From a virus, in the IMG/VR virus record IMGVR_UViG_3300012920_000076, positions 1 to 45,176 of that record: DNA of 45,176 nucleotides; one strand, given 5' to 3'. Shown here piece by piece: positions 13,551 to 44,569 of the stretch (its first letter is position 1; each line of letters opens with the position of its first letter). A model generated the notes under the pieces. That model was not told the DNA's origin, searched no databases, and was given only the letters and a program-made list of their open reading frames with translations. A program made the position numbers and the translations under genes.

Positions 13551-14941
13551 GGTGTATCCGTGCTAAATGTGACTCCATTCTTAAGGTCAGCCGTGTTGTT
13601 ATTTATTGAGTTATCCAATACACTTCCAGTGCTGCCGTTCACTGAGTTGTTCTCGAAACGCCAGTATCCAACCAAGTTGTCCTTCGATGCGTAGTTGCCT
13701 GAGTTAACAGATAAATCAATAGGTGTGCCACTGTTGTATACGGCCTCAACCTCTGATGAGGTTAGCGCCTCACTCCAGATGGCGTATTCATCTACATAAC
13801 CATCAAGGTGATGGCTTGTTATGTACTTACCTACATTATGGTAATTCCCGCCACCAAATCCAGTTCCTAAGCTACTATGGGTCTTGGAGTCAGAGTTGGT
13901 GCCATTTACATATAGCGTAACAGTCGTGCCAGAGCGAACCACGCATACATTGTACCAAATTCCAGTAGAGGTCGTTATATTTACATGTGGATACTGGTTG
14001 GTCCATGTACCACCTTCACTGGCCCACAATTTAAAGCCTGCCGAGCTTGCTAGGTAGTTCAAGCGCATCATGCCGTTACTGGTATTAGAGTCGCCCATGT
14101 ACCAGAAGATTTGATTGGCCGATGAATTAGCCTTAACCCACATAGACATGGTAAAATCATTAGTGCCAATCTCGCTACTTGGGTCAAATGCGACTGCGTC
14201 TATGTAAGTGTTAGCCCCATCTAGAGAAACGCTGTAGTTATTTGACCAAACTGGACTAGATGTGGAAAATAGTATCCCGTTTCTAGTGGTTCCAGTTCTT
14301 CCGTTTCCAGAGGAATCTACTATTGTTCCACCATCTCCAGATACGCTATTATCCTCAAATCGCCAATACCCCTGCAGTATTCCAGAAGAACTATAATCTC
14401 CCGTGTCCGATGTAAGGTCGAATGCTTTTCCGCTGTTGTAAATCTCGGCTATTTCGGCGGCGGTCAGTACGCCTCCAGTTCCTCCCGATCCAGTTCCACT
14501 CCATATGGCAACCTCGTCAATCAGGCCGTGATATGATGGGAATGCACTCGTACTCACAAAAGCCCCAATCGCAGTTGCACTAGCCGTGCTTGTGCCAAAG
14601 TCCACCCCCCAGTGCAAGCTGGTTTGCGTGCCTTGCAAGATACCATCGACATACAATTTAGCGGTTGTGCCTGTTCTGGTATATGCGACATGATACCACC
14701 TCCCCGTTACTGCTGCTGGGCCAGTAATTGAAGTCAAGGACCCGCTCGATCCTAATCTTCCGTAAACTTGTATTTTTTTGGTCCCCGAAACATCCTTAAG
14801 TCGCAGTCCGATGTACTCAGAGCTGCTTGCTGAAGAGCCCATATGAAGTGCATACTGGTTACTGCTTACACTACTAAAGTTAAGCCACATGCTAACTGTA
14901 AAGTCATTGGTGCCGATTATTGTGTGGGCGTTGAAGCTCAT
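13547..14941 (-). CDS. LamG (concanavalin-like) adhesin, 464 aa; its first domain starts in the previous gene
   Basis: Two LamG-type lectin domains are visible. Hallmarks are NDFTVSMWLNF and NDFTMSMWVKA, LYVDGILQGTQ and LYVNGTNSDS, the IDEVAIW and VDEYAIWSEAL strands, IAEIYNSGKAFDL and VEAVYNSGTPIDL, and GYWRFEDNS or GYWRFENNS. The first domain lacks its opening strand (SNNY...LDG), which is encoded at the 3' end of the upstream ORF. The second domain, from about residue 230, has its own SNNYSVSLDG. The start is an ATGA overlap with the upstream stop. LamG domains often bind glycans, so a role in host attachment is likely. Either this is a reinitiated separate chain, or it and the upstream ORF form one adhesin of about 1,150 residues through a frameshift. 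Confidence 0.75.
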   Translation of the reverse strand: MSFNAHTIIGTNDFTVSMWLNFSSVSSNQYALHMGSSASSSEYIGLRLKDVSGTKKIQVYGRLGSSGSLTSITGPAAVTGRWYHVAYTRTGTTAKLYVDGILQGTQTSLHWGVDFGTSTASATAIGAFVSTSAFPSYHGLIDEVAIWSGTGSGGTGGVLTAAEIAEIYNSGKAFDLTSDTGDYSSSGILQGYWRFEDNSVSGDGGTIVDSSGNGRTGTTRNGILFSTSSPVWSNNYSVSLDGANTYIDAVAFDPSSEIGTNDFTMSMWVKANSSANQIFWYMGDSNTSNGMMRLNYLASSAGFKLWASEGGTWTNQYPHVNITTSTGIWYNVCVVRSGTTVTLYVNGTNSDSKTHSSLGTGFGGGNYHNVGKYITSHHLDGYVDEYAIWSEALTSSEVEAVYNSGTPIDLSVNSGNYASKDNLVGYWRFENNSVNGSTGSVLDNSINNNTADLKNGVTFSTDTP

Positions 14942-17001
14942 AGCTCTATGTAGTCATCTGATCCATCTAGCTGGATACTATAGTTATTACTAAACGAGGA
15001 TGATGTTGCCGTACCAGTAGCAGAGCCTCCTATGACTATGTTTCCAGTTGCCGTTCCAGATACTCCTGTGCCTAGGGTTGCTGTGGCACTACCGCCAACT
15101 ATTATGTTGCCTGTCGCTGCGACAACGGCAGTTGAACTACCTACTGGAACGCTACTACTAAACTGAATTCCGTTCTTCAAGCTGGCAGAATTGCCCTGCC
15201 CTGAGTGATCTATGACTGTGCCCGTGCTACCATTTACAGTGTTATCCTCGAACCTCCAGTAACCCTGTAGGTCTGTTGACCTGTCAGTATTATAAGAACT
15301 GGAGTCAGTCAAGTCATTGGGCTCACCACTATTGTATATTGAACTAACGTCACTAGAGGATAGCGTTACATCCCATACGGCCACCTCGTCCAATAGACCC
15401 CCAACTGACCCCTGCACGGCTGAGCTAATGACTCGACCTCCAATTGCTAGGTCTTGTTGGGGTGCAGTGGAGCTTACGGAGCCTAGTGAGGTTGTGCCTA
15501 TCGGTGTAGTGTTTCCGTCTAGGTATATAGACAATGTTCCATTGGCTCCCGATGATGTAACCACAATGTGATGCCAGTCGTTATCCGATATTGCGTTTTG
15601 TACATTAATATTTACTGCGCTACCTGACCAAGAGTGTACCTTTATTGATTTAGTGGCACCTTGGGACGAGCGATTGTCGTACCAAATTTGGATTCCTTTA
15701 TAAGTTCCTGTGTAGTTGTTTGCCAGCAGTACCTGAGCTGCATTTGCCAAGTAATTATCGAGCTTAAACCAAATGCTGGCGCTATATGTTAGGGTAGATG
15801 TAAGGAAATCATAAGTGCCAGCAGATAGTGATCCAACAACAGGTGCGTAGTCATTGGCCCCATCTAGCTGAATCGCATAGTTATTGCTGTATGGTGTAGA
15901 TGCTGTTGCTGTAGCACTACCGCCAACTATTATGTTGCCCGTGGCTGTAGCATTAGTTGTGGATGAACCCATGGAGGTTACGCCAGACGCTGAGCCACCT
16001 ATGACAATATTACCTGTAGCAACCCCATTGGCTGTAGATGATGTTGCCGTTGTTGCGGTTGCGCTACCGCCAATTAATATGTTACCTGTGGCCGAAGGAT
16101 TAACTACTGTGCTAGTTGCTGTAGACGCTGTAGCCGAGCCACCAATTACTATATTGCCTGTTGCGCTATATGAAGTAGGAGCACCACATGGCATCGGGAA
16201 TGAGACAGGGAAATTGAGAGGCCAGCAGGTTGAGGATGGAGTTGCGGAACTTCCACCAATTACAATATTACCAGCTGCGGATGCTGTCTGGGTTATGCCT
16301 ACACTTGATGTAGCTGATCCACCTATAGATATATTTCCAGTTGCAGACACTGTCTGAGCTATGCTTGTGCTTGCTGTAGCTGATCCACCCACAGCAACAT
16401 TACCAGTTGCGGATGCGCTTACCGATACTGATGTGGATGAGGTTGCAGATCCAGTAATGGATATGTCGCCAGTTGCGGATGCCGTCTGCGTTATACTGGT
16501 TGATGATGTAGCTGATCCACCGATAGCTATATTGCCAGTTGCACTTGCAGGCGCAGATATGGATACACTAGTTGCCGCAGAACCAGATATAGCGATATTG
16601 CCAGTTGCGGAACCTGTTGCACTAATATTAATGGATGGAGCTGACGATGAGCCTCCGATAACTATGTTTCCAGTTGCGCTTGCTGGCGCAGAAACAGAAG
16701 TCAATGCGGTTGAGCTTCCGCCTATAACCACACTACCAGTTGCGCTTGCTGGAGCAGAAATAGAAGTAGATGCGGTTGCTGCACCAGTTATAACTACTGT
16801 TGCTGTTGCTTGCTCTTCTTCCTCTAATAATAAAGTCGCTGTTGCTGATCCACCTACGCCAATATTACCTTGGGCTACTCCATTTTGTATATTAGATATA
16901 CTAGCGTCAGCGGAACCACCTATGGCAATTCCCCCAGATGCTACAGCTAAAGCTATCCCTACTGGCGTAAAGCGATAGCTATTTATTATATGGATAGCCA
17001 C
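14938..17001 (-). CDS. Repeat-rich adhesin/tail fibre, 687 aa, with one complete LamG domain
   Basis: Residues about 22-365 hold some fifteen copies of an approximately 20-residue Ala/Ser/Thr/Gly motif (core ATGNIVIGGSATAS). A full LamG domain follows (SNNYAIQLDGANDYAP through VDGN-like strands, LLDEVAVWDVTLSSSD, IYNSGEPNDLT, GYWRFEDN). Two more repeats come after it, and then the first 16 or so residues of another LamG domain before the stop (SNNYSIQLDGSDDYIEL). An insertion between repeats 11 and 12 contains CWPLNFPVSFPMPC, two Cys flanking a Pro-rich loop. The repeats probably form a beta-solenoid or trimeric shaft that displays lectin heads. The N-terminus (HIINSYRFTPVGIALA) may attach to the virion. 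The gene is coupled to the downstream LamG ORF. Confidence 0.75.
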   Translation of the reverse strand: MAIHIINSYRFTPVGIALAVASGGIAIGGSADASISNIQNGVAQGNIGVGGSATATLLLEEEEQATATVVITGAATASTSISAPASATGSVVIGGSSTALTSVSAPASATGNIVIGGSSSAPSINISATGSATGNIAISGSAATSVSISAPASATGNIAIGGSATSSTSITQTASATGDISITGSATSSTSVSVSASATGNVAVGGSATASTSIAQTVSATGNISIGGSATSSVGITQTASAAGNIVIGGSSATPSSTCWPLNFPVSFPMPCGAPTSYSATGNIVIGGSATASTATSTVVNPSATGNILIGGSATATTATSSTANGVATGNIVIGGSASGVTSMGSSTTNATATGNIIVGGSATATASTPYSNNYAIQLDGANDYAPVVGSLSAGTYDFLTSTLTYSASIWFKLDNYLANAAQVLLANNYTGTYKGIQIWYDNRSSQGATKSIKVHSWSGSAVNINVQNAISDNDWHHIVVTSSGANGTLSIYLDGNTTPIGTTSLGSVSSTAPQQDLAIGGRVISSAVQGSVGGLLDEVAVWDVTLSSSDVSSIYNSGEPNDLTDSSSYNTDRSTDLQGYWRFEDNTVNGSTGTVIDHSGQGNSASLKNGIQFSSSVPVGSSTAVVAATGNIIVGGSATATLGTGVSGTATGNIVIGGSATGTATSSSFSNNYSIQLDGSDDYIEL
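15890..16940 (-). repeat. Tandem approximately 60-bp coding repeats of the adhesin shaft
   Basis: On the minus strand about fifteen imperfect units encode (A)TGN-[IV]-x-[IV]-GGSAT-A/S. Each unit is about 20 codons, with the cores conserved and the linkers varying from APASATG to short Thr/Ser runs. Two more copies lie at about 15,020-15,110 after the LamG domain. Copy-to-copy differences are substitutions rather than identical copies, so the array is not a recent pure expansion, but it could still change length by recombination. Confidence 0.75.
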
Positions 17002-17006
17002 AGGAA

Positions 17007-17276
17007 CTACTTCCTCATGGACTTCTTGCCCCTACATTTCCACTTCTTTCTGGAAAGGTCATTAGGGCAAGGTGGGTTCTTGCACTTCTTAATCTTGGCA
17101 GAGCGTGCACAGTATGCATCGCCCTTCTTGGTGCCCGGACGGATTCTATCTCCTCCGCCCTTGGCTTTGCCTGCTTGGCCATAAGAAACCTTACGAGTTC
17201 TTCCCGTCTTAGGGTTCCTTACAACCTTGGTAAATCTTTTGCCCTTTGCGGGCTTCTTTGTCTTCCTCTTGGCCAT
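17007..17276 (-). CDS. Small basic cysteine-containing protein, 89 aa
   Basis: More than a third of the residues are Lys or Arg. The core reads RIRPGTKKGDAYCARSAKI, then KKCKNPPCPNDLSRKKWKC, giving four cysteines that could bind one zinc. The PGTKKGDAYCARS stretch resembles small uncharacterised proteins I associate with marine phages and algal viruses (DUF6321-like; tentative). A nucleic-acid-binding or head-associated role would fit the charge. It overlaps the upstream fibre start by 1 base. The function is unknown. Confidence 0.55.
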   Translation of the reverse strand: MAKRKTKKPAKGKRFTKVVRNPKTGRTRKVSYGQAGKAKGGGDRIRPGTKKGDAYCARSAKIKKCKNPPCPNDLSRKKWKCRGKKSMRK

Positions 17277-18277: not shown

Positions 18278-19275
18278 CAGGATATCCTCATTGCTCCGAC
18301 TGATGTACCAGAACTGCTGCTTTGCGGGCGCGGATCTGCTATGTCGGCAAGTTTATAGTCCCTTCGCTCACGATAGATTTGCTGGCGCTCTTTCTGGTAC
18401 TGCGTTAAGTGGGACTTGTACATATTTAAATCCTTATCGACCTCCCTAGCGAGGTGAGCCTTTACGTATTCCGCAACTGCTTTCGCCTCTGGGTGGTCAA
18501 ATAAAACATATTCAGCATCCTTTTCCGTAGTACCAAAATACTTTTCTGTCGCCCCAGATAGCTCATTAAACTGAGACTCTCCTTCGGTATGTATAAGAAG
18601 CTTCTCGTCTTCCGCAAGCTTTGGGGCTAAAACAAATCCATCATTGCCGAATGCAACTCCCTGCACTCTTGTTGTCCCATCCAATAGTGGATACCTAGCC
18701 TCCCAGTCGTAAATATGTATCGCCCGATAAAGGCTATTCTTAAGGCTGTTTGCCGCAGTAGGATACCTCCTTATTCTTGCAGATGTTATTTTGCTGTTCG
18801 TCTGATTGTAGCTACCCTCCTGCGCCCCATCGTTTGTATCGCTCAAGACATTGACCAATACCCACCTTGATGTGTCCGTCAATGGGTCAGAGCCAACTGC
18901 TGGGGGGTCGGTAAGGTAGGCAGTAGTGCCTGTCTCGGCTTCAGATGCAGTAGGCTGTCTGCTAACAGCTTGGTAGACTGGTGCTCCAAACTTAGTGTTT
19001 CCGTATGCAATCTGGTAATCTAAATCTTCTTCTCTTTTTCGTCTAACTACCATATCCCCAACTGCAAATTGCACGGTATTTAACCACTCCTTTACACCAG
19101 TAGCTGTAGAGTAGGCTATTATGTCGGTGGTCTTAAGCTCAGGAACATGTCTCTGTAAATCTATAAGGGATGCCCTAGCCAACTGATTGATGTAGTTTTG
19201 TATACCCCGACCCTTCCGCTGGGAGTCAACCAGTAGATATGTCCTAAATGTCGTCTTGAATTCTCCCCAGTTCAT
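18277..19275 (-). CDS. Putative head-tail adaptor/tail tubular A-like protein, 332 aa
   Basis: The N-terminus (MNWGEFKTTFRTYLLVDSQ...INQLARASLIDLQRHVPEL) and C-terminal helices (HPEAKAVAEYVKAHLAREVD...YKSHLTQYQKERQQIY) resemble the helical adaptor fold of podoviral tail tubular A proteins, which sit beneath the portal. The centre is beta-rich and includes VYQAVSRQPTASE and a TDTSRWVLVNV strand, more than T7 gp11 carries. The order after capsid and before fibres also fits. Assignment is by shape and position, not by a diagnostic motif. It overlaps the downstream fibre by 1 base and the upstream membrane gene by 4. Confidence 0.5.
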   Translation of the reverse strand: MNWGEFKTTFRTYLLVDSQRKGRGIQNYINQLARASLIDLQRHVPELKTTDIIAYSTATGVKEWLNTVQFAVGDMVVRRKREEDLDYQIAYGNTKFGAPVYQAVSRQPTASEAETGTTAYLTDPPAVGSDPLTDTSRWVLVNVLSDTNDGAQEGSYNQTNSKITSARIRRYPTAANSLKNSLYRAIHIYDWEARYPLLDGTTRVQGVAFGNDGFVLAPKLAEDEKLLIHTEGESQFNELSGATEKYFGTTEKDAEYVLFDHPEAKAVAEYVKAHLAREVDKDLNMYKSHLTQYQKERQQIYRERRDYKLADIADPRPQSSSSGTSVGAMRIS

Positions 19276-19712
19276 CTTTTCTTAGAAGGTATTGCGTAAA
19301 AGCCTACTACCATAAACATCAAATCAATAAATGACATCAATAGCAAGCCTCCAGTTAGCTTTACAACATGGAATTCCTTGGCTGGCCCAAAGATAAATGC
19401 AAGTATGCCTCCGTCTGTTCCTGACTTGGGCATGATTACATCGTACTCAATACTAGGATTCATTGCATAGTACATGAGTAAGAAACAGTATGTGAAGGTT
19501 AGGCTCATAAATAATATGCGCCTTGTGACTTTTACGAAAGGATCTTTAGAGTTGTCCTTCTGTTGTTGCACCGCCGCATCGAACATCTGCTTGTCCCGTG
19601 CGGCGATTATACGCTGTTGCTCTTCCTTTTGAGCCAACCATCCATTTACAACATTAGCGCCCAACTTAATGCCAGCGCCAATCATTGTGTTCATTATCGG
19701 TCCAGATAACAT
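19272..19712 (-). CDS. Putative holin-like membrane protein, 146 aa
   Basis: The N-terminal 55 residues are helical and charged (NGWLAQKEEQQRIIAARDK). Two clear transmembrane helices follow: about 64-83 (RRILFMSLTFTYCFLLMYYA) and about 117-138 (KLTGGLLLMSFIDLMFMVVG). A polar loop of about 30 residues separates them. A small membrane protein next to a TM/coiled-coil protein within the late operon is a common holin arrangement. The DPFVK motif before the first TM resembles three-TM holin families, but this is weak evidence. An alternative start at the second Met would shorten it by 6 residues. Confidence 0.5.
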   Translation of the reverse strand: MLSGPIMNTMIGAGIKLGANVVNGWLAQKEEQQRIIAARDKQMFDAAVQQQKDNSKDPFVKVTRRILFMSLTFTYCFLLMYYAMNPSIEYDVIMPKSGTDGGILAFIFGPAKEFHVVKLTGGLLLMSFIDLMFMVVGFYAIPSKKR

Positions 19713-19937
19713 TTAACCCTCCCTATCTAATAGTTTATCCAACTTTTGCTCTATACTGTCGAGCCGCTGGAAAATACTCTTACTCCTTTCCCTTAGGCCC
19801 GACACGTCCTTTTCCAATTCATTAATCCTGTCTTCGTTTTTTTGAATGGCCTCAAATCCCATCTTGATGGTAAATCCGAGAACACCTACCAATACTCCAG
19901 TAAGTATCTGTACCCCAAGCATTGTAGTTTCGTTCAT
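19713..19937 (-). CDS. TM plus coiled-coil protein, XhlA/holin-accessory-like, 74 aa
   Basis: One N-terminal transmembrane helix (MLGVQILTGVLVGVLGFTI) is followed by an amphipathic coiled coil (NEDRINELEKDVSGLRERSK...LDSIEQKLDKLL). This reverses the usual XhlA order (coiled coil then TM), so the resemblance is only general. It could be a holin partner, an antiholin or a spanin-like protein. It overlaps the upstream gene by 4 bp and is immediately followed by the 146-aa membrane gene. Confidence 0.5.
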   Translation of the reverse strand: MNETTMLGVQILTGVLVGVLGFTIKMGFEAIQKNEDRINELEKDVSGLRERSKSIFQRLDSIEQKLDKLLDREG

Positions 19938-20325: not shown

Positions 20326-22302
20326 TTATGAGGATGAATCAGTATCCTGAGATCCAGTACCTTGACCAGTACCGCCTGCGTCAGCATCAGTCGAGTCGGC
20401 CTCAAAGCCTTCAAGAACTGGAGCGGTGTAGGTTAAGCTACCAGAGGAACTGTAGATACCATCAGTAGTGCTAGCTGAAGTTCCAGTCATGGCATCATAC
20501 TGATTAGGACCTTTAGCGGTCACACGGACATCCTCAGCGAAGTTCTCAATAATGAGGTGGCGGTGAGGGCGATCAACCATGGTTGTCCATTTGGTTGAAC
20601 GCAAGCTGTATTCGCGCTCTACTGAATCCATGCGGCAACGATACAAACGATCAACTTCAACATTGGGGCTCTTGCGGGTAACCGAGTTGGTTCCAGCAAT
20701 ACCAATTTTGATGTCAGACCAATCCAAGAGCCATAGCGCACGATTGCGGCTGGTAGCTCCTACATTATCGTATACACCACCTGTTATTCCGCTTGTAACA
20801 TTCAAGATGTCATCGAAGAATGGGTCGTGGAATACTGCCAACTGAACATTTACTTCAGGAATGTCGTAGATGTTGTAGTTGAATAGGATAATTCCGTCAT
20901 GGGTGATTTTTTGTCCAATCTGAGCCTGACGAGTAACATCCCAACTATACTTAGTTTTGTAGTAGTTGTTCATCGCCTCAAAGATGAGGTTGGATGTGAT
21001 GCGGTCAGTCATGCAGTCGATAACGCTTACGCGGTCACCGTCTTGCTCACGATTGCGCTTCAAGTAGTACAGGTCACCGAATAGTGAGTCTAGGTTGAGC
21101 GGGTTGCCCAAGTTGTCCTTAACTCGGTTGCCTTCATACAGTAGGGTCTTGATTCCAAGTGCATTCGACTTGTACTCCAAGTGACAACTACTGTCTTCTG
21201 GGTCGGTAACTGCAGGCAGATTCATGTACTTCTCAGGCTGTTGCTCTGCATTGATAGCTTGATTGTACCATGTTGCACGGGTCCATTGGTCTTGTGAGAC
21301 TTGGGCCGCAATGCGGTTTTGTTCTGCCAGCGGGTTGTACACCATGCTGTTTAAGAATGGATTGACCTTGCCATCCATGATCTTGGCGAGTGTTTCCTTG
21401 TACTCTTGATTGACAATGCGAGATTCGCGTGTCGTTTGGAGCCAGTTGACAATCAGACGCATCGACAGATCAGTAGGCTGATTGTAACACCATGCCTCAT
21501 AGTCGTTTACGTTGTTTGCAACTGTTTGGAGAACACCACCAGTTGGACGATAGTGATCATATACAGCCGATCCAATTCCAGCAGCAGGAACGTCACGTCC
21601 TTGAGGGCGAAGAACTACATATGCCTCAGTGTTACTAGAGCCTTGCTTGGCACCAACAACTTCAAACTGTGAGTCATAAGCATCTCCACCTGTGCGCCAG
21701 CCAGATACAACTACGTATGAGCCCGGAAGGAAATAACGCTCGATGTTGGTTAGATCGGTTTTCCAATCGGAATTGCCCATTGTTACCGTTACTCTCCAGT
21801 CTCCTGTTGCAAGTGCGCCGTTGCTATTGCCGTGCTCGCCTTGACCAGTTGTACTTGGAGCCGACAAGGCTTTATAGGTGCTAAGGTCGGTTGTATTGGT
21901 TCCTGAGCCTGTAGCTTCGCCTGCCGTTACTACAAAGTAGTTAGCATTGATAACACTCTTCTGCCTACGCTGAATGTAGGGAAGAATGATGGACTGTTCT
22001 GCCACGTTGACCTTATTAATCAGTGGCTTGATGTTGGTGATAGATGAAGTAAGGAGTGTGGTGAGTCCTCGCTCCTCAACGCCTAAAGCTTTTGCTTCGG
22101 CAGCGTTTGCTATCACGCGAGCAAGGTCCGTTTCCTTATTGGCTAAAGCCGCAAATTCATTCGGGGTCAGACCCTTGACCTGTGCTCGGGTTAGGGTGCA
22201 TCCGGTACTGGAGTCAACCTTCACGATGCGAGGTAGACTACCGCCTTTTACCAGACCACCATCGGTTGTATTCTCTGATACGGGTGTTGATGATAGTGCC
22301 AT
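20326..22302 (-). CDS. Probable major capsid protein, 658 aa
   Basis: The gene follows the scaffold-like and portal genes, the standard order. It has its own terminator-plus-promoter-like region upstream, expected for the most abundant virion protein. The N-terminal 130 residues contain helices (LTPNEFAALANKETDLARVIANAAEAK). The centre has strands (NIERYFLPGSYVVVSGW) and a long helix-containing domain. The C-terminus is low-complexity, Gly/Thr/Ser/Asp-rich. At 658 residues it is larger than typical HK97-fold capsids (about 300-450), suggesting an inserted domain. I did not recognise a specific family. The ATG lacks a Shine-Dalgarno sequence and is preceded by an A-rich leader. Confidence 0.7.
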   Translation of the reverse strand: MALSSTPVSENTTDGGLVKGGSLPRIVKVDSSTGCTLTRAQVKGLTPNEFAALANKETDLARVIANAAEAKALGVEERGLTTLLTSSITNIKPLINKVNVAEQSIILPYIQRRQKSVINANYFVVTAGEATGSGTNTTDLSTYKALSAPSTTGQGEHGNSNGALATGDWRVTVTMGNSDWKTDLTNIERYFLPGSYVVVSGWRTGGDAYDSQFEVVGAKQGSSNTEAYVVLRPQGRDVPAAGIGSAVYDHYRPTGGVLQTVANNVNDYEAWCYNQPTDLSMRLIVNWLQTTRESRIVNQEYKETLAKIMDGKVNPFLNSMVYNPLAEQNRIAAQVSQDQWTRATWYNQAINAEQQPEKYMNLPAVTDPEDSSCHLEYKSNALGIKTLLYEGNRVKDNLGNPLNLDSLFGDLYYLKRNREQDGDRVSVIDCMTDRITSNLIFEAMNNYYKTKYSWDVTRQAQIGQKITHDGIILFNYNIYDIPEVNVQLAVFHDPFFDDILNVTSGITGGVYDNVGATSRNRALWLLDWSDIKIGIAGTNSVTRKSPNVEVDRLYRCRMDSVEREYSLRSTKWTTMVDRPHRHLIIENFAEDVRVTAKGPNQYDAMTGTSASTTDGIYSSSGSLTYTAPVLEGFEADSTDADAGGTGQGTGSQDTDSSS

Positions 22303-36951: not shown

Positions 36952-37321
36952 GGTGATGGAAGTCTTTGCTGATAAGTTTAAGCTAGAGTTCAGAAAGATG
37001 CCTATCCAGTATAGGCTGGACTTTGCTCTTATGCGTAAGGGCCAGAGCAACATATTCGGTATGGCCGAAATTAGATGCAGGTCTGGAACTTGGTATCCGA
37101 CTCTACTTGTTAGCCTTCAGAAGTTGATGCACATGGACGAATACAGTAAATTCGGTATCCGATGTGTGCTTGTCTTAAAAATAGAAGGCAATGTGTATTA
37201 CTGGCCTTACAGCAACTTTAGCGAGTACGATATAGGCTGGGGTGGAAGGAATATCCCAAGGGATGACCAAGACTCAGAGCCTGTTGTGCATATACCAAGA
37301 TCAGCCTTCAAGGCTATATGA
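36905..37321 (+). CDS. Putative restriction-endonuclease-fold (PD-(D/E)XK-like) protein, 138 aa
   Basis: A compact alpha/beta sequence has the pattern YRLDFALM, then about 12 residues, then GMAEIRCR, then helix. That resembles the D...(D/E)xK core with Arg in place of the usual Lys. The C-terminus contains YYWPYSNFSEYDIG. It may be a Holliday-junction, repair or restriction-like enzyme, or a degenerate non-catalytic member. I chose the GTG at 36905 with AGGGAG about 6 nt upstream instead of the TTG at 36881. It converges with the HNH gene (8-bp overlap). Confidence 0.55.
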   Translation: MRKLYETKETLSEELEVMEVFADKFKLEFRKMPIQYRLDFALMRKGQSNIFGMAEIRCRSGTWYPTLLVSLQKLMHMDEYSKFGIRCVLVLKIEGNVYYWPYSNFSEYDIGWGGRNIPRDDQDSEPVVHIPRSAFKAI

Positions 37322-37592
37322 GGTATCCGTTTTCTCTGGCCCAACGAGGATGCCTATGTATCTCCTCGTGACACACCCTGCATGTGGGCAACCAAGTCTT
37401 ATCATTTAGATAATTCTTGCCCCGACCTGCCATATGATGAACGTCTGTGGCTGACTTCTGGTTGCACACTTGGCAACGGGGGTAGCTCTTGAGGAAGCTC
37501 AATCGGAGTGTACTGTACTGCTTCGCTTCCTCCTCCCGCTTCTTCGACATCCGACGAAGCGGTGTTTTCCTCCTCAATGGAGTTCGTTTCAT
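37314..37592 (-). CDS. HNH endonuclease, 92 aa
   Basis: It begins with basic RTPLRRKTPLRR, then CQVC, then DVHHMAGRGKNY and later CRVCHEEIHRHP. This CxxC...DVHH...N...CxxC-H layout is a compact HNH/zinc nuclease. Such enzymes cut DNA in packaging, recombination or exclusion. It ends the second leftward block and meets the plus-strand genes end to end. A second minus-strand frame covering it (37402-37608) is treated as a shadow. Confidence 0.85.
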   Translation of the reverse strand: MKRTPLRRKTPLRRMSKKREEEAKQYSTLRLSFLKSYPRCQVCNQKSATDVHHMAGRGKNYLNDKTWLPTCRVCHEEIHRHPRWARENGYLI

Positions 37593-37667
37593 CTTGATCG
37601 CTTGCCATTTTTAAGCTTGAAAGGTTTGGGTGTACCAAAGCTCTGCTCAATAAGCCCTCGCTTTATT

Positions 37668-38093
37668 TCAGCTTGGCGCTTTTTTCGAGCGACTTCTTGT
37701 TCGTTTATTTTCTTTAGTGTCTTCAGGTCCCACATCGTTCTCTTCCTTCTTTAAGTGGTGTTCGATATTGTGCATATCAACGACCTTTTCAAGTGTAAGT
37801 TCTACAATTTTATCATTGGGAACAAACCTCCATCTAACCTCGCCGTTCTGCCGTATTTGAAATACTGTTGTTCTCAATCCGATGCTACTTATGATTGCGC
37901 GTTTGCCCTCAAGTAGGCATTCATCGCCTACACTCCATGTAGGACTAGCATAGAATGAAATACCTGCTGCAAGTTTAGCTAGGAAGTCTTTTATTAGCAT
38001 CCAGCAAACCAGTGAAAGCCCCACCCATATTAGGTGTTGTAAGTAGTCCTTTAGGTAGGCATCTATTGGGTTAGTCTCCATATTTCCAGCCAA
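37668..38093 (-). CDS. One-TM MscS-like membrane protein, 141 aa
   Basis: A transmembrane helix at about residues 20-36 (LIWVGLSLVCWMLIK) is followed by a beta domain reading TWSVGDECLLEGKRAIISSI, GLRTTVFQI and WRFVPNDKIVELTLEKV. That is the MscS beta-domain pattern (vGD...G.v..IglR.T.....G....vPN..i). A Lys/Arg-rich cytoplasmic tail (KENKRTRSRSKKAPS) ends the protein. Full MscS has three TMs and about 280 residues; this resembles a minimal single-TM version. It could gate or perturb the host membrane, or merely reuse the fold. Confidence 0.7.
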   Translation of the reverse strand: MAGNMETNPIDAYLKDYLQHLIWVGLSLVCWMLIKDFLAKLAAGISFYASPTWSVGDECLLEGKRAIISSIGLRTTVFQIRQNGEVRWRFVPNDKIVELTLEKVVDMHNIEHHLKKEENDVGPEDTKENKRTRSRSKKAPS

Positions 38094-38382
38094 ACCTTTC
38101 TCCTAAATTAGTTCTGCCCCAGCATTGATTGCCTTGCATGTTACTGTATGGAGTGTAACAACCGCATCCCATGTCTGTACCCCAAGGGCGACATCTCTTG
38201 AGTTGCGGATCAAATACTGGACATTCATAACAAGTACGCATTCTACGCTTCCACTCTGCTGACTCAATAGGATTCTTTATAACTTTAAATGCTTGGCAAA
38301 GCATTCGGAAGAGCCTTTTAGGTGAAGGCTTCGTCACCTTGATAACCTCTACCCACTCCCTAATGCGCTTGGTGTTAAACAT
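38071..38382 (-). CDS. Small cysteine-cluster protein, 103 aa
   Basis: The core has six cysteines: RTCYECPVFDPQLKRC, then MGCGCYTPYSN, then QCWGRTNL. This pattern (CxxCp.....C...gCGCy......C) is a small zinc-binding type frequent in phage genomes. The N-terminus is basic (VIKVTKPSPKRLFRMLCQAF). It overlaps the MscS-like start by 23 bp and shares TAATG with the next gene. The function is unknown. Confidence 0.6.
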   Translation of the reverse strand: MFNTKRIREWVEVIKVTKPSPKRLFRMLCQAFKVIKNPIESAEWKRRMRTCYECPVFDPQLKRCRPWGTDMGCGCYTPYSNMQGNQCWGRTNLGERFGWKYGD

Positions 38383-40841
38383 TAAATTCCACCCATAGCC
38401 CTAAATCGTTGCAGATCTTCGGCACTCATATCCTCCATGGGAGGAGCTTTGTAGGGTTCGGTAAAGGCACCAGACTCTTCCAGTATGTCATAGAGTAGCA
38501 TTACTCCGCCAGTAGGGCCGCCTAACTTAAGAACCTTCTGTACTTGCTTAAAAAGCTTAGGGTTAGACGCAAGTTTTGTTCTTAGCTTATAAAGCTTATC
38601 GCCAGTCCACTGTCTAGTCTTAGACATATCACCTACCTTAGCTAGTCTTTCGGTAGCAATCTTTCTGGTCTTATTAATTTGTCCTTGTCGCCTCTTGTTA
38701 AATTTCCTCTCCTGAGGCGATAATTTTTTGCCAGAAGATTTTTGCGTTTGTTCTGGTTTGGTTTTATCTAACTCATCAACTAGCTCTTGAATGGTTTCTT
38801 TACTTGAAGCCATACTTATTCTCTGTCTAAGCCTTTTAGCTTCAGAGGGAGGAAATTCGTTCAGCTTTTTATTTAGATAGGCTGACCCGCCAGCAATTGC
38901 TCCAGCAGTTAAATTCCTAAGTATGCTACCGTCCCCGCCGTCATCCTCAGGAATCGCTATATCCTCTGAAGGTGCTAGTGGGCTTCTTGTGTCTACATTA
39001 AGAGCTTGGTCTGTTGTGTCTGCATCAAGACCCAAGGGCGACATTCCTTCTCCAGTAGGGGGAACTAGAGGGTTAGGGATGTCATAGATTGGATTTCCAT
39101 TTTCATCAATTGGCATGTCTGGCTCAATTGGAACGAAGACAGGATTTCCATCTTGGTCTGTTTCCATGGACATACCTTCGGGAACTATTGGAAATGTATT
39201 AGCCTTTATACCTTCTTTAGAATCCCCATATCCAAATCGAGTATCAGCCTCTATGCCTCTTTTGGACATACCAGATCCAACTTGATTTTGTAATGCGTTC
39301 CTTCGGTCTATTAAATCGTTATACTGCTCGCTAAATTCAGTAACAGAAATCTCCCCGCTTTGCAGTTGATTACTAATGGCCTCTAGTCTTTCTTCTACCG
39401 CTATTAATTCATCAATGTTTTGTGTCGCTTGCGCTTCGGGTGACCTAGTATCTGCCACTACAGTACCAGAGGTACCACTTCCTACAAGTGGGTTTGCCTC
39501 AAGAGCATCAAAGTCTGCATTAGGTATGCGTGGTCCCTCAAGAGCATCAAAGTCTGCATTAGGGCTTAAGGTGTTTGCCCCTACGATTCCGCTAACTCCC
39601 GAGCCCGTAGGCATTGTGTTTGCCGTTATGGTGCCACTAACTGCACTTCCTCTTAATACAGGGTTTGACTCTGCGGCTTCTTGCCTTACTGCCTGCTCTG
39701 CTGCTGGGCCACCCATTTGTCTTGCCGCTTGTGCAGCTGCCTCTACTTGCTCTGGGGTTCCGTTTGCAGCTGCATCTATTAAGTCATTTGCGTCTTGCTC
39801 TGGATTGACTGAGTAGGCTGGGGTTCCGTCAGGATTATTATAAAGAGGCCCTCCATTGGGTGCGTACTTACGGGTTCCATCTGGATTGAGGGCGGGTGTG
39901 TATCCTTGGGGTAGTAATATATCATCAGCGGGCTCAGGAGGTATCTTGAGGTTTCTGGGATCTTTGGCCATTTCCCTAGCCATATCCAATGCCCTTTGCG
40001 ATTCACTAACCCCCCTGCTCAGCTCGCTCAACTCGTCAATATCTTCTAGCTCTCTCTTTTGATCCTCTAGGCGTTCTCTTGCGGTAGCAGCATCACCTTC
40101 TGGCGTTTGAATGCTTTTAAGAGCTGCGTCTATTTCGGTAGTGTCAAGCGTAGGAACACCAGTTACAGACGCTCCACTAGGTGTTTCCGCACCTGTCAAG
40201 GGGTTGGTCCCTTGATCTGACCTCTTATCTTGCCACTTGTTAGGATCGGGTGGCTGAGGTTCAGCAAAAGGATCAACCGCTGGCGTTGCTGGCATTGCTG
40301 GCGTTGCTGGCGTTGCTACTGGCTGTGCCGATTGTGGTCTTACTTGATTTGTCCTGCGACTAAAGATGTCACCAACTCCATGTATCAATCCACCAAAGTC
40401 ATCCATTAGTGGAGAGGCAAGCTGGGCCAATGTGAATACGCCTCTATCTCCTCTCCCGTATGGGTCTAGCGAATCTGCAATATTTCCTGCTTTAGCTAGA
40501 AAATCAATTGCTGGCCTGACCTGCTGACCAAGTAACCCAAGTGACCTACTCCCGAAGATGCGCGGATCGTCGCTTGGTACAAACGGAGGAGTACCGCCAG
40601 CAGATGTGTATGCTGGTCCCGCAGGCTGTGGGGGCATACCCGCGTCCATGACCATACTATCAATAGCATCTAGCGTCTCTGGCCTCATGTACGAGGTATT
40701 GCCGTACCTTGGGGCATTTAATACTCCCCCAGCAACATTACCTAGCGTATCAAGTACAGGTATTCCATCCGTAAGGTTGTCTATAGTATTGCCAACAAAC
40801 CCTAGTGTGTTGGTAACAGGGGAGAGTAGTTGCTGTAGCAT
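38382..40841 (-). CDS. Low-complexity ejection-like/virion protein, 819 aa
   Basis: The N-terminus has hydrophobic Gly-rich segments (MLQQLLSPVTNTLGFVGNTI). The middle is Pro/Asp/Glu/Ala-rich disordered sequence with repeats of GSG(V/M/T)S-G...A(N/D)T and PNADFDALE. The last 180 residues are basic and helical (EAKRLRQRISMASSKETIQE; LSPQERKFNKRRQGQINKTR) with a short hydrophobic GGPTGGVMLLYDIL segment. Such mixed disordered and amphipathic proteins are typical of ejected or internal virion proteins. No catalytic motif is visible. The class is inferred. Confidence 0.5.
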   Translation of the reverse strand: MLQQLLSPVTNTLGFVGNTIDNLTDGIPVLDTLGNVAGGVLNAPRYGNTSYMRPETLDAIDSMVMDAGMPPQPAGPAYTSAGGTPPFVPSDDPRIFGSRSLGLLGQQVRPAIDFLAKAGNIADSLDPYGRGDRGVFTLAQLASPLMDDFGGLIHGVGDIFSRRTNQVRPQSAQPVATPATPAMPATPAVDPFAEPQPPDPNKWQDKRSDQGTNPLTGAETPSGASVTGVPTLDTTEIDAALKSIQTPEGDAATARERLEDQKRELEDIDELSELSRGVSESQRALDMAREMAKDPRNLKIPPEPADDILLPQGYTPALNPDGTRKYAPNGGPLYNNPDGTPAYSVNPEQDANDLIDAAANGTPEQVEAAAQAARQMGGPAAEQAVRQEAAESNPVLRGSAVSGTITANTMPTGSGVSGIVGANTLSPNADFDALEGPRIPNADFDALEANPLVGSGTSGTVVADTRSPEAQATQNIDELIAVEERLEAISNQLQSGEISVTEFSEQYNDLIDRRNALQNQVGSGMSKRGIEADTRFGYGDSKEGIKANTFPIVPEGMSMETDQDGNPVFVPIEPDMPIDENGNPIYDIPNPLVPPTGEGMSPLGLDADTTDQALNVDTRSPLAPSEDIAIPEDDGGDGSILRNLTAGAIAGGSAYLNKKLNEFPPSEAKRLRQRISMASSKETIQELVDELDKTKPEQTQKSSGKKLSPQERKFNKRRQGQINKTRKIATERLAKVGDMSKTRQWTGDKLYKLRTKLASNPKLFKQVQKVLKLGGPTGGVMLLYDILEESGAFTEPYKAPPMEDMSAEDLQRFRAMGGI
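39497..39563 (-). repeat. 28-bp direct repeat, 39-bp period, coding a 13-aa repeat
   Basis: CCTCAAGAGCATCAAAGTCT(...)AGG occurs at 39497-39524 and again at 39536-39563 with no differences in 28 bp. It encodes PNADFDALEGPRI followed by PNADFDALEANPL. The identity suggests recent duplication. Confidence 0.8.
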
Positions 40842-40845
40842 CGGA

Positions 40846-41538
40846 CTATGATAAGCGCGGGGCTTGTATAGGTGCTATTGATCCATTGAACTGACCTACT
40901 GGGAGTGGTTGATCGGGGCCGTTTAGGGCGGACACGACTTGAGATACCTTCTGTACTTGATCTAAGACTGATGGATCGGCGGTGGCTGGCATGGGTTGCT
41001 GGAAGCCAGATTGAGTGGCTGGAGGATTGACTTTAAATGCTTCCGCAGCAATTGATGCGGGTGGTTGATATGCTCTTGCTCCTGCCATTGGGTCAGAAGG
41101 TTGAGAGTTATATAAATTACCTTGCTCGTCTACTCTGGTTGTGTCCGCAAATGGATCAACAGCACTTGGGTTGTTTGTGGCTGGAGCTTCTCCTCCTTTT
41201 GGAAATAATTGACCTAGTAGGCCCATTCGGTCTCCGATTCTATCAAGCGCTGATCCGCCTCTATTGAATAGGCCGCCAACGCCACCAGTTATATCTGTGA
41301 CAGCTTTTCCAAGCCCAAGACCGCCCTTGCCTAATACAGGAAGCTTACTTAGCAAGCCACCAGCCATGCCTCCAAGGCCACTAAGTCCAGTACCTAATGC
41401 AGAGCCAATTGTCCCAGCACCACCTAACACGCTACCTAGTATGGGTGCTAGAAAATTGAGAAATGGCATCATGGAAATTTCCATGAGTGCTTGCTGTGAG
41501 TTCCAAGGATTTTTAAAGAGATGCAATAAGGATTTCAT
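40846..41538 (-). CDS. Gly-rich hydrophobic virion-like protein, 230 aa
   Basis: The N-terminal third is strikingly hydrophobic and Gly-rich (FLNFLAPILGSVLGGAGTIG, then ALGTGLSGLGGMAGGLL), which can insert into membranes. The C-terminal half is Pro/Gln-rich (PATQSGFQQPMPATADPSVL). Ejection proteins that open a channel can look like this. The ATG at 41538 is predicted to be the first transcribed nucleotide (see the promoter at 41545). An internal start around residue 19-24 would keep the hydrophobic core. Confidence 0.5.
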   Translation of the reverse strand: MKSLLHLFKNPWNSQQALMEISMMPFLNFLAPILGSVLGGAGTIGSALGTGLSGLGGMAGGLLSKLPVLGKGGLGLGKAVTDITGGVGGLFNRGGSALDRIGDRMGLLGQLFPKGGEAPATNNPSAVDPFADTTRVDEQGNLYNSQPSDPMAGARAYQPPASIAAEAFKVNPPATQSGFQQPMPATADPSVLDQVQKVSQVVSALNGPDQPLPVGQFNGSIAPIQAPRLS

Positions 41539-41726: not shown

Positions 41727-41925
41727 TATTGACAGTATTAGAGAGTCCTGAAAAGTTGATCCCGTGTTTTAATTGACATGTTTATGAATTGGTTTGATTG
41801 ATTCATTGAGCGCAAAGTTAAAGGTCAACTGGGTATTTTATTTACTTTGACCCAAAAGGGATACAGCGTTTGCCAAACCTGCTTTTAACTAGAAGGGCTG
41901 CATCGGGGGATGTGGCCCTTCTTAT
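41727..41925 (+). ncRNA. Candidate plus-strand structured RNA
   Basis: The plus strand has TTGACAGTATTAGAGAG near its 5' end, resembling the intergenic promoter-like motif, then a 6-bp stem GGTCAA/TTGACC, and ends in the hairpin at 41891-41922 followed by TATTTGA. No plausible ORF of useful size exists on this strand. The region lies inside an otherwise leftward operon. Initiation is unproven. Confidence 0.35.
41891..41922 (+). terminator. 14-bp GGGG-tetraloop hairpin, plus-strand oriented
   Basis: AGAAGGGCTGCATC pairs with GATGTGGCCCTTCT around GGGG. Two positions are G-U pairs on the plus strand but would be A-C mismatches on the minus strand, so the plus-strand RNA is likely the selected form. 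The following TATTTGA is a weak T-rich tail. It may also act as a less perfect terminator for the leftward 497-aa gene, whose stop overlaps it. Confidence 0.6.
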
Positions 41926-43415
41926 TTGATAGGCTTAGTTATCTTGTAATGTTTTTGCACCGAAAGCGGGCGAACATTGCTCAATTTAAGCAATTTTCGC
42001 TTACCACTAGGGGTAGTCCTATATCCGTCAAAAGCCGCATTTAATTTACTTGGCATATCAGTTTGCTCTAGGCTAATAAGTCCCTTTTCTTCCATGCTTT
42101 TCAGCATTTTAAGGAAAGGTATGCTCATGCCTTCGAGTGGGTTTGATCCTGTGTAAACTGTCCCGTAGTCATCCAGTAGGCGCGTGATAAGCTGACTGCC
42201 TTCACCCTTCTTCTGGGACTCTATTATGTTAATAGCTACACCATCCTTAAAATCGTTAAACTCAACCATGCTCTTATTATCTGTACGGATAATACGATTG
42301 CCGCCAGAATTATCTCGTACTTTTTCTTCGCCACCTATCCGATTCGGCTTCATTGCACTTATTGGTTGTCTATTGAGAATGGGATCGGTGAAACTAAGTC
42401 CCCTGCCATGATCGGGCATTATGGGACGTGTAAACTGGATTGGTAGCGTAGGTTGATCAGGACTGAGCATTCTTTGGTTATCCCTTATTGGTTTTTCATA
42501 GAAGGTCTCTGCTCTAGCCCTGTTTCTTTTGTTTTTTAATTCTTCACTCCTAAACCAATTTTGTGCCCTCATGAATAGAGGGTGAACTTCTTTAGCTAAC
42601 TCTTTATCGTTAAATAAACCAGACTTACCTGCATTCGATGTATCGTGACGAAGGTTATTATATAGTTCTCTAAGCTCGCCTTGGGTGTCCCATGCCTCTT
42701 GCATAATTTCACCAAGCTCGGTTCCCTTCGCTTTAGCTGCAGCCTTATTTAATTGCTCCTTATAGCTGAGTTCCTTTTGTAAATCCTTGAGAGACTCTTG
42801 AATTTTACTACGCCAGTCACCCTTCGTAAGGCCCTTGTACATCGGTAGGCTATCAATACTTGACCACCCCTTTGGTGTCACTTTTTTTTTGGCAAGATTT
42901 GCGGCAACAAGTTTAGGGCCAATAGCGGATGCTGCAGACCTTCTGTTAAATTCCCTTCGGGTCGTAACTGGCCCATCATTGATTTTATCGGGCTTCATCC
43001 ACGCAATAACTTTATCCCCAGTATCTACAGCCTTTACAGCTGCCTCTTTTGCGCCCTTGGCTACCTTAGGTGCTACCTTGGGGCCATATATGGCACTAGC
43101 CAGATTGACAAAGCCTCCTTCAGAGTAAGGCATCATACTGTCTACTGTAGCCCTTGCTGTACCAACTGGGTCTTTAGCCGCATCTATGGTACTTCCTATA
43201 AAAGAGGGCTGTGGTTGTGTAGACGCAGATTGGAAAGATGTATCCCCTATGTTACCCATGTCCTGCAGTGCGCCCATAAGCATATCTCCTACACCTCTTA
43301 CCATTGGCATAGGGTTAAATGGATTTGGAGCAGGAGGTGCTTCCCTTAGAGGTGGACGCATAGCCTCATAAGGGTCACGACCAAGCGAAAGTAAGTGATA
43401 TTGCTCTGGTGTCAT
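41922..43415 (-). CDS. Virion/ejection-like protein with C-terminal GNAT-like motif, 497 aa
   Basis: The N-terminal 100 residues are Pro/Met/Gly-rich (PPAPNPFNPMPMVRGVGDML) with hydrophobic segments, like the 819-aa protein. Helical basic regions follow (WRSKIQESLKDLQKELSYKE). Near residue 400, VAINIIESQKKGEGSQLITR matches the strand plus Q/R-x-x-G-x-G/A acetyl-CoA loop of GNAT acetyltransferases, and the later SIPFLKMLKSMEEKGL could be the C-terminal helix. The domain could acetylate host proteins after ejection, or be a degenerate fold. It overlaps the metallopeptidase gene by 4 bp. Confidence 0.5.
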   Translation of the reverse strand: MTPEQYHLLSLGRDPYEAMRPPLREAPPAPNPFNPMPMVRGVGDMLMGALQDMGNIGDTSFQSASTQPQPSFIGSTIDAAKDPVGTARATVDSMMPYSEGGFVNLASAIYGPKVAPKVAKGAKEAAVKAVDTGDKVIAWMKPDKINDGPVTTRREFNRRSAASAIGPKLVAANLAKKKVTPKGWSSIDSLPMYKGLTKGDWRSKIQESLKDLQKELSYKEQLNKAAAKAKGTELGEIMQEAWDTQGELRELYNNLRHDTSNAGKSGLFNDKELAKEVHPLFMRAQNWFRSEELKNKRNRARAETFYEKPIRDNQRMLSPDQPTLPIQFTRPIMPDHGRGLSFTDPILNRQPISAMKPNRIGGEEKVRDNSGGNRIIRTDNKSMVEFNDFKDGVAINIIESQKKGEGSQLITRLLDDYGTVYTGSNPLEGMSIPFLKMLKSMEEKGLISLEQTDMPSKLNAAFDGYRTTPSGKRKLLKLSNVRPLSVQKHYKITKPIK

Positions 43416-44569
43416 GCGTTCATCTCTTTGATAGCTCTATTGGTCTGAACGAAAGCTGGCATCCTCTTAATCATTTCTTTCTTATATTGCTTCCACTCCT
43501 TATCAAATCCTATAGGGTCCCCCTTATACATATGCTGACGACCTTGGTAGTATGGGTTGCTCGAGTCATTCTCAAATTTGTCTATCGCCCTTGCTGCATC
43601 TTCTTGATTGAATGGCCCCTTGAATCCAGAGGGGAATAAGTTCTTGTCTTGTATGTATCTACTCTTGATCTCTTTCATGAGCTCAATGTTTTCAACTGGC
43701 TTAAAGTAATAGTAGCCAGACTTGGACTTATTGGGTGCTGCGTACTCATCAATGTACCTTTTCTTTTCAGCCCTGAAGTTATTGAGGCGTTTGGCTGCTA
43801 ATTTTTTCTGCTCTGGGGTTTTTGCATTTTCATATGCTCTATATAAGCCCAATTCATTCAACTTACGACCTGCGTCCTCAACCCCATGTCCAAGTTCGTG
43901 TGCTACTACAGTATTCTTGCCAAACTCACTATCGAACGGACGAAGGGTTGATCTTAAGCCTGCCTCTCCTTTAAATATATTACGAGCCCATTCTACAGGA
44001 TCGGGATTATGTGGGTTAAGTCCTGTAATTGTGGGACCTGCAATAGTGATGTAATTATATGCACTGGAGTATGACCCTAGGGGATGACCATCGCCACCAT
44101 TCGCCCTTTTCGTTCTGACATAGGATGCTGGCCTGTTGTGATCAAACACTTCTTGGCTCTGCATCGTTCTCAATGGACTTTTGTTTACTCTGCCAGAACT
44201 AAGCTTAGGCAAAGTCCCTAATGCAGAGCCCTGAGGACTAAAACTCATTATCCGATCTTGTATTTTTTTAAATGCAGAAGGGCTATCATACTGGAATATA
44301 GGAATCTTAGTGTCATAATCCTTATCCCAGCCCATATTGTTTGCCAGACTGTAAGCTTTTGCGTCTTGAATCGCCTTATTTATGCCCCCCTCATAGTTAC
44401 TGAACCTAGGTGCCAAATACTCTCTTGGCCTTACTGTCCCAACATGCTTTAGTTGATAATCGCTAGGTACCTCGCGTACCTCACCTAGTCTGGAGTAGAT
44501 GTTTGCCTTTACGGGATGAGCATAAGGTAACTTAGGTTGTCTACTTATATTATCGTATGCGTTAGACAT
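43412..44569 (-). CDS. HELGH metallopeptidase-like protein, 385 aa
   Basis: A zincin motif lies at residues 224-228 (VVAHELGHGVEDAG), where the two His ligate zinc and the Glu is catalytic. A downstream Glu in YIDEYAAPNKS could be the third ligand. The N-terminal 200 residues are a Tyr/Pro/Arg-rich region (YDNISRQPKLPYAHPVKANI) without motif. Phage-encoded HExxH proteins are often virion-carried or ejected. This is the first gene of the second leftward block, and its ATG is close to a predicted transcription start (P3). The substrate is unknown. Confidence 0.75.
   Translation of the reverse strand: MSNAYDNISRQPKLPYAHPVKANIYSRLGEVREVPSDYQLKHVGTVRPREYLAPRFSNYEGGINKAIQDAKAYSLANNMGWDKDYDTKIPIFQYDSPSAFKKIQDRIMSFSPQGSALGTLPKLSSGRVNKSPLRTMQSQEVFDHNRPASYVRTKRANGGDGHPLGSYSSAYNYITIAGPTITGLNPHNPDPVEWARNIFKGEAGLRSTLRPFDSEFGKNTVVAHELGHGVEDAGRKLNELGLYRAYENAKTPEQKKLAAKRLNNFRAEKKRYIDEYAAPNKSKSGYYYFKPVENIELMKEIKSRYIQDKNLFPSGFKGPFNQEDAARAIDKFENDSSNPYYQGRQHMYKGDPIGFDKEWKQYKKEMIKRMPAFVQTNRAIKEMNA

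Follow-up and report, generated by a model that had tools for sequence, protein, structure and literature searches.

The question raised by this locus is whether a phage can encode a protein reduced to one membrane helix and the beta domain of the channel protein MscS, and what such a protein could be used for. The locus was analysed within a virus record from IMG/VR that is 45,176 bases long, and this whole record is referred to as the window. An open reading frame of 141 codons at positions 37668-38093 had been proposed to specify a single transmembrane helix followed by an MscS-like beta domain. The ORF listing and its translation confirmed a reading frame in this interval on the minus strand, designated mini-MscS, and the three motifs named in the original prediction, VGDECLLEG, IGLRTTV and FVPNDKI, are all contained in it. 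The size of the product should probably be corrected. The ATG at 38081, giving a protein of 137 aa (gene at 37668-38081, minus strand), is likely to be the start codon, because the residues METNP(ID) beginning there are kept in the relatives described below, and because the additional residues MAGN obtained from the alternative TTG at 38093 fall inside the preceding ORF. Genes for a large terminase, an ERF recombinase and a PDDEXK nuclease, together with a portal match, identify the window as tailed phage DNA, and the assignment of the gene to a phage was correct. The phages in INPHARED are distantly related to the window at most.

Hydropathy analysis (Kyte-Doolittle mean 1.84) defined a single transmembrane helix at residues 17-35 (37977-38033, minus strand), which is part of a helix extending from residue 5 to 42 in both structure models described below. 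Only 16 residues are located N-terminal to it. The net charge of the N-terminal flank is -2 and that of the C-terminal flank +1, from which an N-out/C-in topology is predicted, the same as for TM3 of MscS. According to the alignments, residues 31-46 (KDFLAKLAAGISFYAS; 37944-37991, minus strand) constitute a TM3b-like segment. In this segment, G40 corresponds to G121 of MscS, and the kink has a KD pair, a feature shared with many MscS proteins of bacteria. The MscS beta domain follows at residues 47-95 (VGDE...IGLRTT...VPNDKI; 37797-37943, minus strand), as delineated by hhalign and by a match to the Pfam family PF00924 covering residues 34-95. The C-terminal tail, residues 103-137 (37671-37775, minus strand), is variable, each of the four phage members having its own length and sequence here. 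The TM1/TM2 paddle, which is the tension sensor, is absent. The C-terminal alpha/beta domain of MscS is also absent, since PF21082 was not matched by the window copy or the other members in the Pfam search; the same model did match a full-length MscS used as control.

Short similarities of this kind could be obtained by chance, or the protein could be a small beta protein that has a transmembrane helix but no kinship to MscS. The window copy taken by itself would allow such a reading, as it matched PF00924 with an E-value of 0.0068 and 16.9 bits, below the cut-off of 20.2. However, matches to PF00924 were detected in all four phage members, the best with an E-value of 3.1e-4, and the cut-off was passed by two of them when scored as loci, L002 with 21.9 bits and L004 with 20.1 bits (20.6 with neighbours). 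Comparison with 17 bacterial MscS proteins by hhalign yielded a probability of 97.2% and a score of 74.8, and the maximum reached when the columns of the phage alignment were shuffled 60 times was 2.4% with a score of 21.0. In the reverse direction, a profile of the four phage rows found matches in 15 out of 398 Pseudomonadota genomes, all in long frames of 294 to 603 aa. Six of these frames were inspected; MscS motifs are present in them, and the alignments cover TM3 and the beta domain. In a further draw of 369 genomes, similar matches were seen, mostly in frames of 240 to 699 aa, plus one weak match in a frame broken by stop codons. The best tblastn matches on plasmids were two genes, both annotated as mechanosensitive channels. 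When sequences from the PDB were searched with the window protein by phmmer, the beta domains of plant MSL10 and Flycatcher1 were at the top with weak scores. With the four-row profile, a repetitive beta-propeller design lacking any significant single stretch came first, followed by MSL10 and Flycatcher1.

At the level of residues, positions 31-75 align without gaps to Q112-R156 of E. coli MscS, including LAAG and the pair VGDE/AGEY; the identity to E. coli MscS is about 23%. The TM3b helix joins the beta domain directly, with LAKLAAGI...VGDE aligned to LSNLAAGV...AGEY without a gap, and P88-N89 corresponds to P166-N167 of E. coli MscS. Structure prediction, which had been suggested as a check of the original prediction, gave a divided answer. 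A single-sequence AlphaFold2 model (pLDDT 58) showed the long helix and a poor beta part, and no MscS was among its Foldseek matches; the lack of a match for this unseeded model is the second point in favour of a chance likeness. Another model, calculated from the phage sequences together with 12 enterobacterial MscS fragments (low confidence, pLDDT 56), contained the same helix and four strands. Nearly all of its top 42 Foldseek matches in the PDB were MscS-family channels, none of them with an E-value of 0.001 or below. As MscS rows had been supplied as input, this result is partly circular and is consistent with the MscS fold, but is no independent proof of it. Weighed against the relatives passing the cut-off, the hhalign probability far above the shuffled alignments and the reciprocal profile matches to MscS, a chance likeness appears highly improbable. 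On these sequence comparisons the homology is beyond chance and is regarded as established, and there is very little doubt that mini-MscS belongs to the MscS superfamily. Its description as a minimal MscS type with one transmembrane helix holds.

Homology does not imply that the canonical channel is present. E. coli-type MscS possesses both TM1/TM2 and the alpha/beta cage, whereas the phage protein has neither, and relative to bacterial MscS it also contains a 3-residue insertion in a beta hairpin and a different packing face of TM3a. The gate positions L105 and L109 of MscS correspond to L24 and M28, and the packing residues A102/G104/A106/G108 are represented by G21/S23/V25/W27 in an ungapped alignment which assumes that the helix is equivalent to TM3a. 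This origin of the helix is given by the contiguous HMMER alignment; in the alignment preferred by hhalign, TM2 is fused to TM3b. Because the Gly and Ala positions of TM3a are largely replaced, a pore formed by mini-MscS, as deduced from the alignment, cannot pack like that of E. coli MscS. By its domain content the protein is not the canonical channel and has the architecture of microsporidian MscS2, a TM3-like helix plus beta domain. With no sensor paddle present, gating by tension is doubtful, and tension sensing is not implied by the homology. The protein may function as a channel, but mechanosensitivity should not be assumed, as the sensor part is gone.

Three other viral contigs carry the gene, designated G1 (IMGVR_UViG_3300030106_005394; G001, loci L002 and L121-L124), G2 (IMGVR_UViG_3300030451_004712; G002, loci L003 and L125) and G3 (IMGVR_UViG_3300030333_002958; G003, loci L004 and L126-L127). 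The core of mini-MscS is conserved to 90% between the window and G1, for which the best large virion-type proteins reach 83-84% and the neighbours of the gene 49-65%; in G3, 91% of the core is kept. The comparison with G2 (L003) revealed a 99-residue core that is identical in spite of 46 synonymous codon differences, matching at 20 of 39 fourfold sites. On either side of the gene, DNA similarity to G2 is only about 35%, homology ending at the gene borders. Among the other ORFs compared between the two contigs there were few matches, mostly weak, including a helicase-like ORF (30%), a 388-aa ORF (24%) and one 128-aa ORF (57%). An identical core despite synonymous changes, in phages that are dissimilar in the flanks and elsewhere, indicates that purifying selection on mini-MscS is very strong and that the gene has been exchanged between such phages. 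Conservation in four contigs with changes that are almost solely synonymous also argues that it is a real gene.

The family is present in at least one further virus, since the uncharacterised protein A0A516MLU7 (129 aa) of the BFVD collection is 82% identical over 123 columns in a Foldseek alignment of the seeded model with viral predictions. No PHROGs family matches mini-MscS and no relatives were detected in 50,697 phage records, which agrees with the earlier statement that this is no standard gene of phages. Searches for distant phage relatives with a core-only alignment, and of viral contigs with a bacterial MscS query, did not reveal further copies. A fixed-spacing pattern, AAG..VGD..RTT, returned three known contigs and L117 only, and thus no new copy; L117 was rejected as a relative, its match to the pattern being due to chance. 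A related contig of 16.7 kb (L129) lacks mini-MscS, an absence that carries no information since the contig breaks off near the expected site of the gene. A scan of bacterial genomes with query A2 found nothing, and no close bacterial MscS relative was present in the Pseudomonadota draws of 398 and 369 genomes. Mini-MscS is rare, but not unique. Two phage records, MT840054 (L012) and Microcystis phage MaAM05 (L011), were rejected as precedents because they contain full-length or near-full-length MscS. Other MscS matches in phage records, covering 30-100% of MscS and in many cases bacterial-looking, were left out as precedents as well. The MaAM05 record (MW495066.1) specifies purB, glgX and the full-length MscS at 193636-199845, a cellular-looking sequence under a phage name. 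In CACSKA010000005.1 (L072), titled Chryseobacterium, an MscS 86% identical to that of E. coli was seen, and this entry is probably mislabelled or mixed.

In the window, mini-MscS is part of a run of ORFs on the minus strand. The first of these is a Gly-rich hydrophobic ORF of 230 aa (40846-41538), for which G1 has a 266-aa counterpart by a composition-biased match. Promoter-like sites are located upstream of it (41692-41665 and 41572-41545), in a number not above chance. Further upstream, at 41891-41922, a strong terminator-like hairpin of 14 pairs follows a 497-aa ORF and separates it from the run. The next ORF (819 aa, 38382-40841) contains repeated GSxxSxxxxADTxP-like motifs, and a 600-aa ORF with the same motif is found at the same place in G1. 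A Cys-rich ORF of 103 aa (38071-38382), weakly similar to phrog_13558, overlaps the start of mini-MscS by 11 nt, also in G1. The 3' end of mini-MscS is overlapped by a small basic ORF of 48 aa (37589-37735; 53 aa in G1), and the run is closed by an HNH endonuclease gene (37314-37592; phrog_740, E 7e-9), the product of which is 65% identical in G1. In G3 (28 kb), ORFs of terminase, portal, head and tail type lead to three further ORFs (343, 481 and 1251 aa), then mini-MscS and a calcineurin-like phosphoesterase, and the run of G2 ends in the same way. In both, the first base of mini-MscS is also the final base of the preceding ORF's stop codon (1-nt overlap). Common to all four phages is a run of large virion-type genes with mini-MscS at its 3' end or close to it; the labels virion and ejection are deduced from order and size, these large ORFs being named by no family model.

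Several other features of these genomes were recorded. G1 contains a single ORF of 5,699 aa (41382-58481) in its 72.7-kb contig. At the left end of the window a 906-aa ORF (1-2720, minus strand) runs off the sequence, and as 585 residues of it are 36% identical to the large G1 ORF, it is probably the first part of a comparably large gene. A 385-aa ORF (43412-44569, minus strand) has a HELGH motif of the zinc-protease type and no Pfam match, and a 687-aa ORF (14938-17001, minus strand) contains many copies of an ATGNIxIGGSAT-like repeat. Three small ORFs on the minus strand (19272-19712, 19713-19937 and 17007-17276) are 92-93% identical in G1 and exceed in conservation both the terminase (84%) and the ORF at 20326-22302 (83%); the one at 19272-19712 contains hydrophobic stretches.

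With regard to lysis, G1 harbors a 104-aa ORF (59227-59541) that starts with a lipobox-like sequence (LLILLCGC) and has a hydrophobic stretch at its C-terminal end, resembling a one-piece spanin, which suggests a Gram-negative host. This ORF and small ORFs with one transmembrane helix are located away from mini-MscS, and mini-MscS is therefore not required as the sole membrane protein of lysis. A holin was rejected as the leading identity in view of these separate ORFs in G1 and of the MscS beta domain, which is no holin feature.

As the best explanation overall, mini-MscS would be a minimal subunit of the MscS superfamily, a pore-type helix with a beta domain, which would be produced late together with the virion genes. 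We infer that it would be inserted N-out/C-in into the cytoplasmic membrane of the host, where copies of it would join via their beta domains to form a homo-oligomeric ring, probably of seven subunits like that of microsporidian MscS2. This ring could be a simple, poorly selective pore through which ions and osmolytes would exit under late envelope stress, and turgor would thereby be conditioned before lysis. Formation of an oligomeric ring by the protein is considered quite probable, and the explanation as a whole, a late MscS-type ring in the inner membrane conditioning turgor as a simple pore, has about an even chance of being correct. Taken separately, the late pore or pressure-release role is proposed more tentatively, as plausible but somewhat short of even. 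It is nevertheless the most probable role, a part in ejection being placed second, and modification of host channels and a non-conducting scaffold being ranked equally after it.

None of the roles first suggested, at lysis, in DNA entry or in blocking superinfection, is singled out by the sequence itself. A late position at the end of an operon is more in keeping with conditioning of the envelope or with DNA ejection than with a superinfection block, which would act early. Mini-MscS might belong to the virion and either be delivered together with the internal ejection proteins or dock them, forming a collar or ring in the inner membrane for DNA entry. The direct coupling to the final large virion-type ORF in G2 and G3, as well as the location behind the Gly-rich hydrophobic ORF and the large motif-repeat ORF in the window and G1, point in this direction, and the cage domain, which would block the pore, has been lost. 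Operon position is no proof of a location in the virion, however, and a fusion to an ejection protein was not seen. A ring of about 26 Å would admit duplex DNA, but MscS pores narrow far below 20 Å in the transmembrane region. For the beta ring of microsporidian MscS2, a value of about 26 Å has been measured (PMC11262690). Overall, participation in ejection is conceivable, but rather unlikely.

The region of homology covers exactly the oligomerising part of MscS, and a fragment without the paddle would be expected to act as dominant-negative. The phage protein might enter host MscS rings via its beta domain and lock or open them, altering osmotic behaviour or the DNA entry of rivals. Mixed rings need a matching interface, whereas identity to E. 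coli MscS is low and the searched genomes contained no close bacterial MscS; late expression fits a superinfection block poorly too. We regard such a modifier as improbable, and the same applies to a non-conducting membrane anchor, in which the beta domain would do no more than form an oligomeric scaffold, for assembly or in the envelope, with a pore that is closed or filled with lipid. Bulky residues replacing the small packing residues of TM3a and the missing mechanosensing parts would be in line with an anchor, but the hydrophobic gate positions and TM3b are kept and nearly invariant, and a short core can conduct, as exemplified by TcMscS (PMC12334622). Against the membrane ring of the best explanation, a cut-down MscS need not insert into membranes, since E. 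coli MscS without two of its cytoplasmic domains is cited in PMC11262690 as no longer inserted in E. coli membranes.

Should mini-MscS conduct, an MscS core with one transmembrane helix, without paddle and cage, would allow a direct test of which parts MscS requires for its assembly, gating and tension sensing. Should the proposed roles be true, it would provide a definite example of a phage that uses a mechanosensitive-type protein to control the turgor of its host or the entry of its own DNA; the literature searched offered no mechanism for this. Virus-encoded proteins of this type have been noted before. A 2018 survey listed viral mechanosensitive channels from large DNA viruses only, and the MscS-type protein of a virus of Aureococcus anophagefferens differs from mini-MscS in its 261 aa, three predicted transmembrane helices and eukaryotic host (PMC6163359). 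In a 2026 virome paper, mechanosensitive channels, especially MscL, were among the viral genes (PMC13288924). The one phage protein with a clear MscS match that was found in the literature, where it had no follow-up, is gp51 of Paraglaciecola phage PANV1 (HHpred 99.7%, E 7.2e-17; at most one weak transmembrane helix; PMC9239159). It is encoded by a myovirus of 151 kb and is likened to mini-MscS from the published description.

Among cellular proteins, TcMscS of Trypanosoma cruzi (165 aa) is a working mechanosensitive channel without TM1 and C-terminal domain (PMC12334622). It is small like the phage protein, but retains TM2 and a short N-terminal helix, whereas the phage protein has a single transmembrane helix. 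MscS2 of the microsporidian Nematocida displodere consists of TM3 and the beta domain only and forms a heptamer; its truncation was, to the knowledge of the authors, unique to microsporidia, and classical tension sensing was doubted (PMC11262690). The new result is that this extreme truncation of MscS also occurs in viruses of bacteria. A more far-reaching proposal, to which we give limited credence, is that the one-helix ring would be a collar or port for the phage genome in the inner membrane, or a late pressure valve, representing the smallest viral MscS core and a design reached separately in microsporidia. Compared by described architecture, MscS2 and the phage protein are of similar size and both have one TM3-type helix and a beta domain, without TM1/TM2 and the alpha/beta domain; MscS2 belongs to eukaryotic parasites that acquired it from bacteria, while the phage copies are located at the end of late operons.
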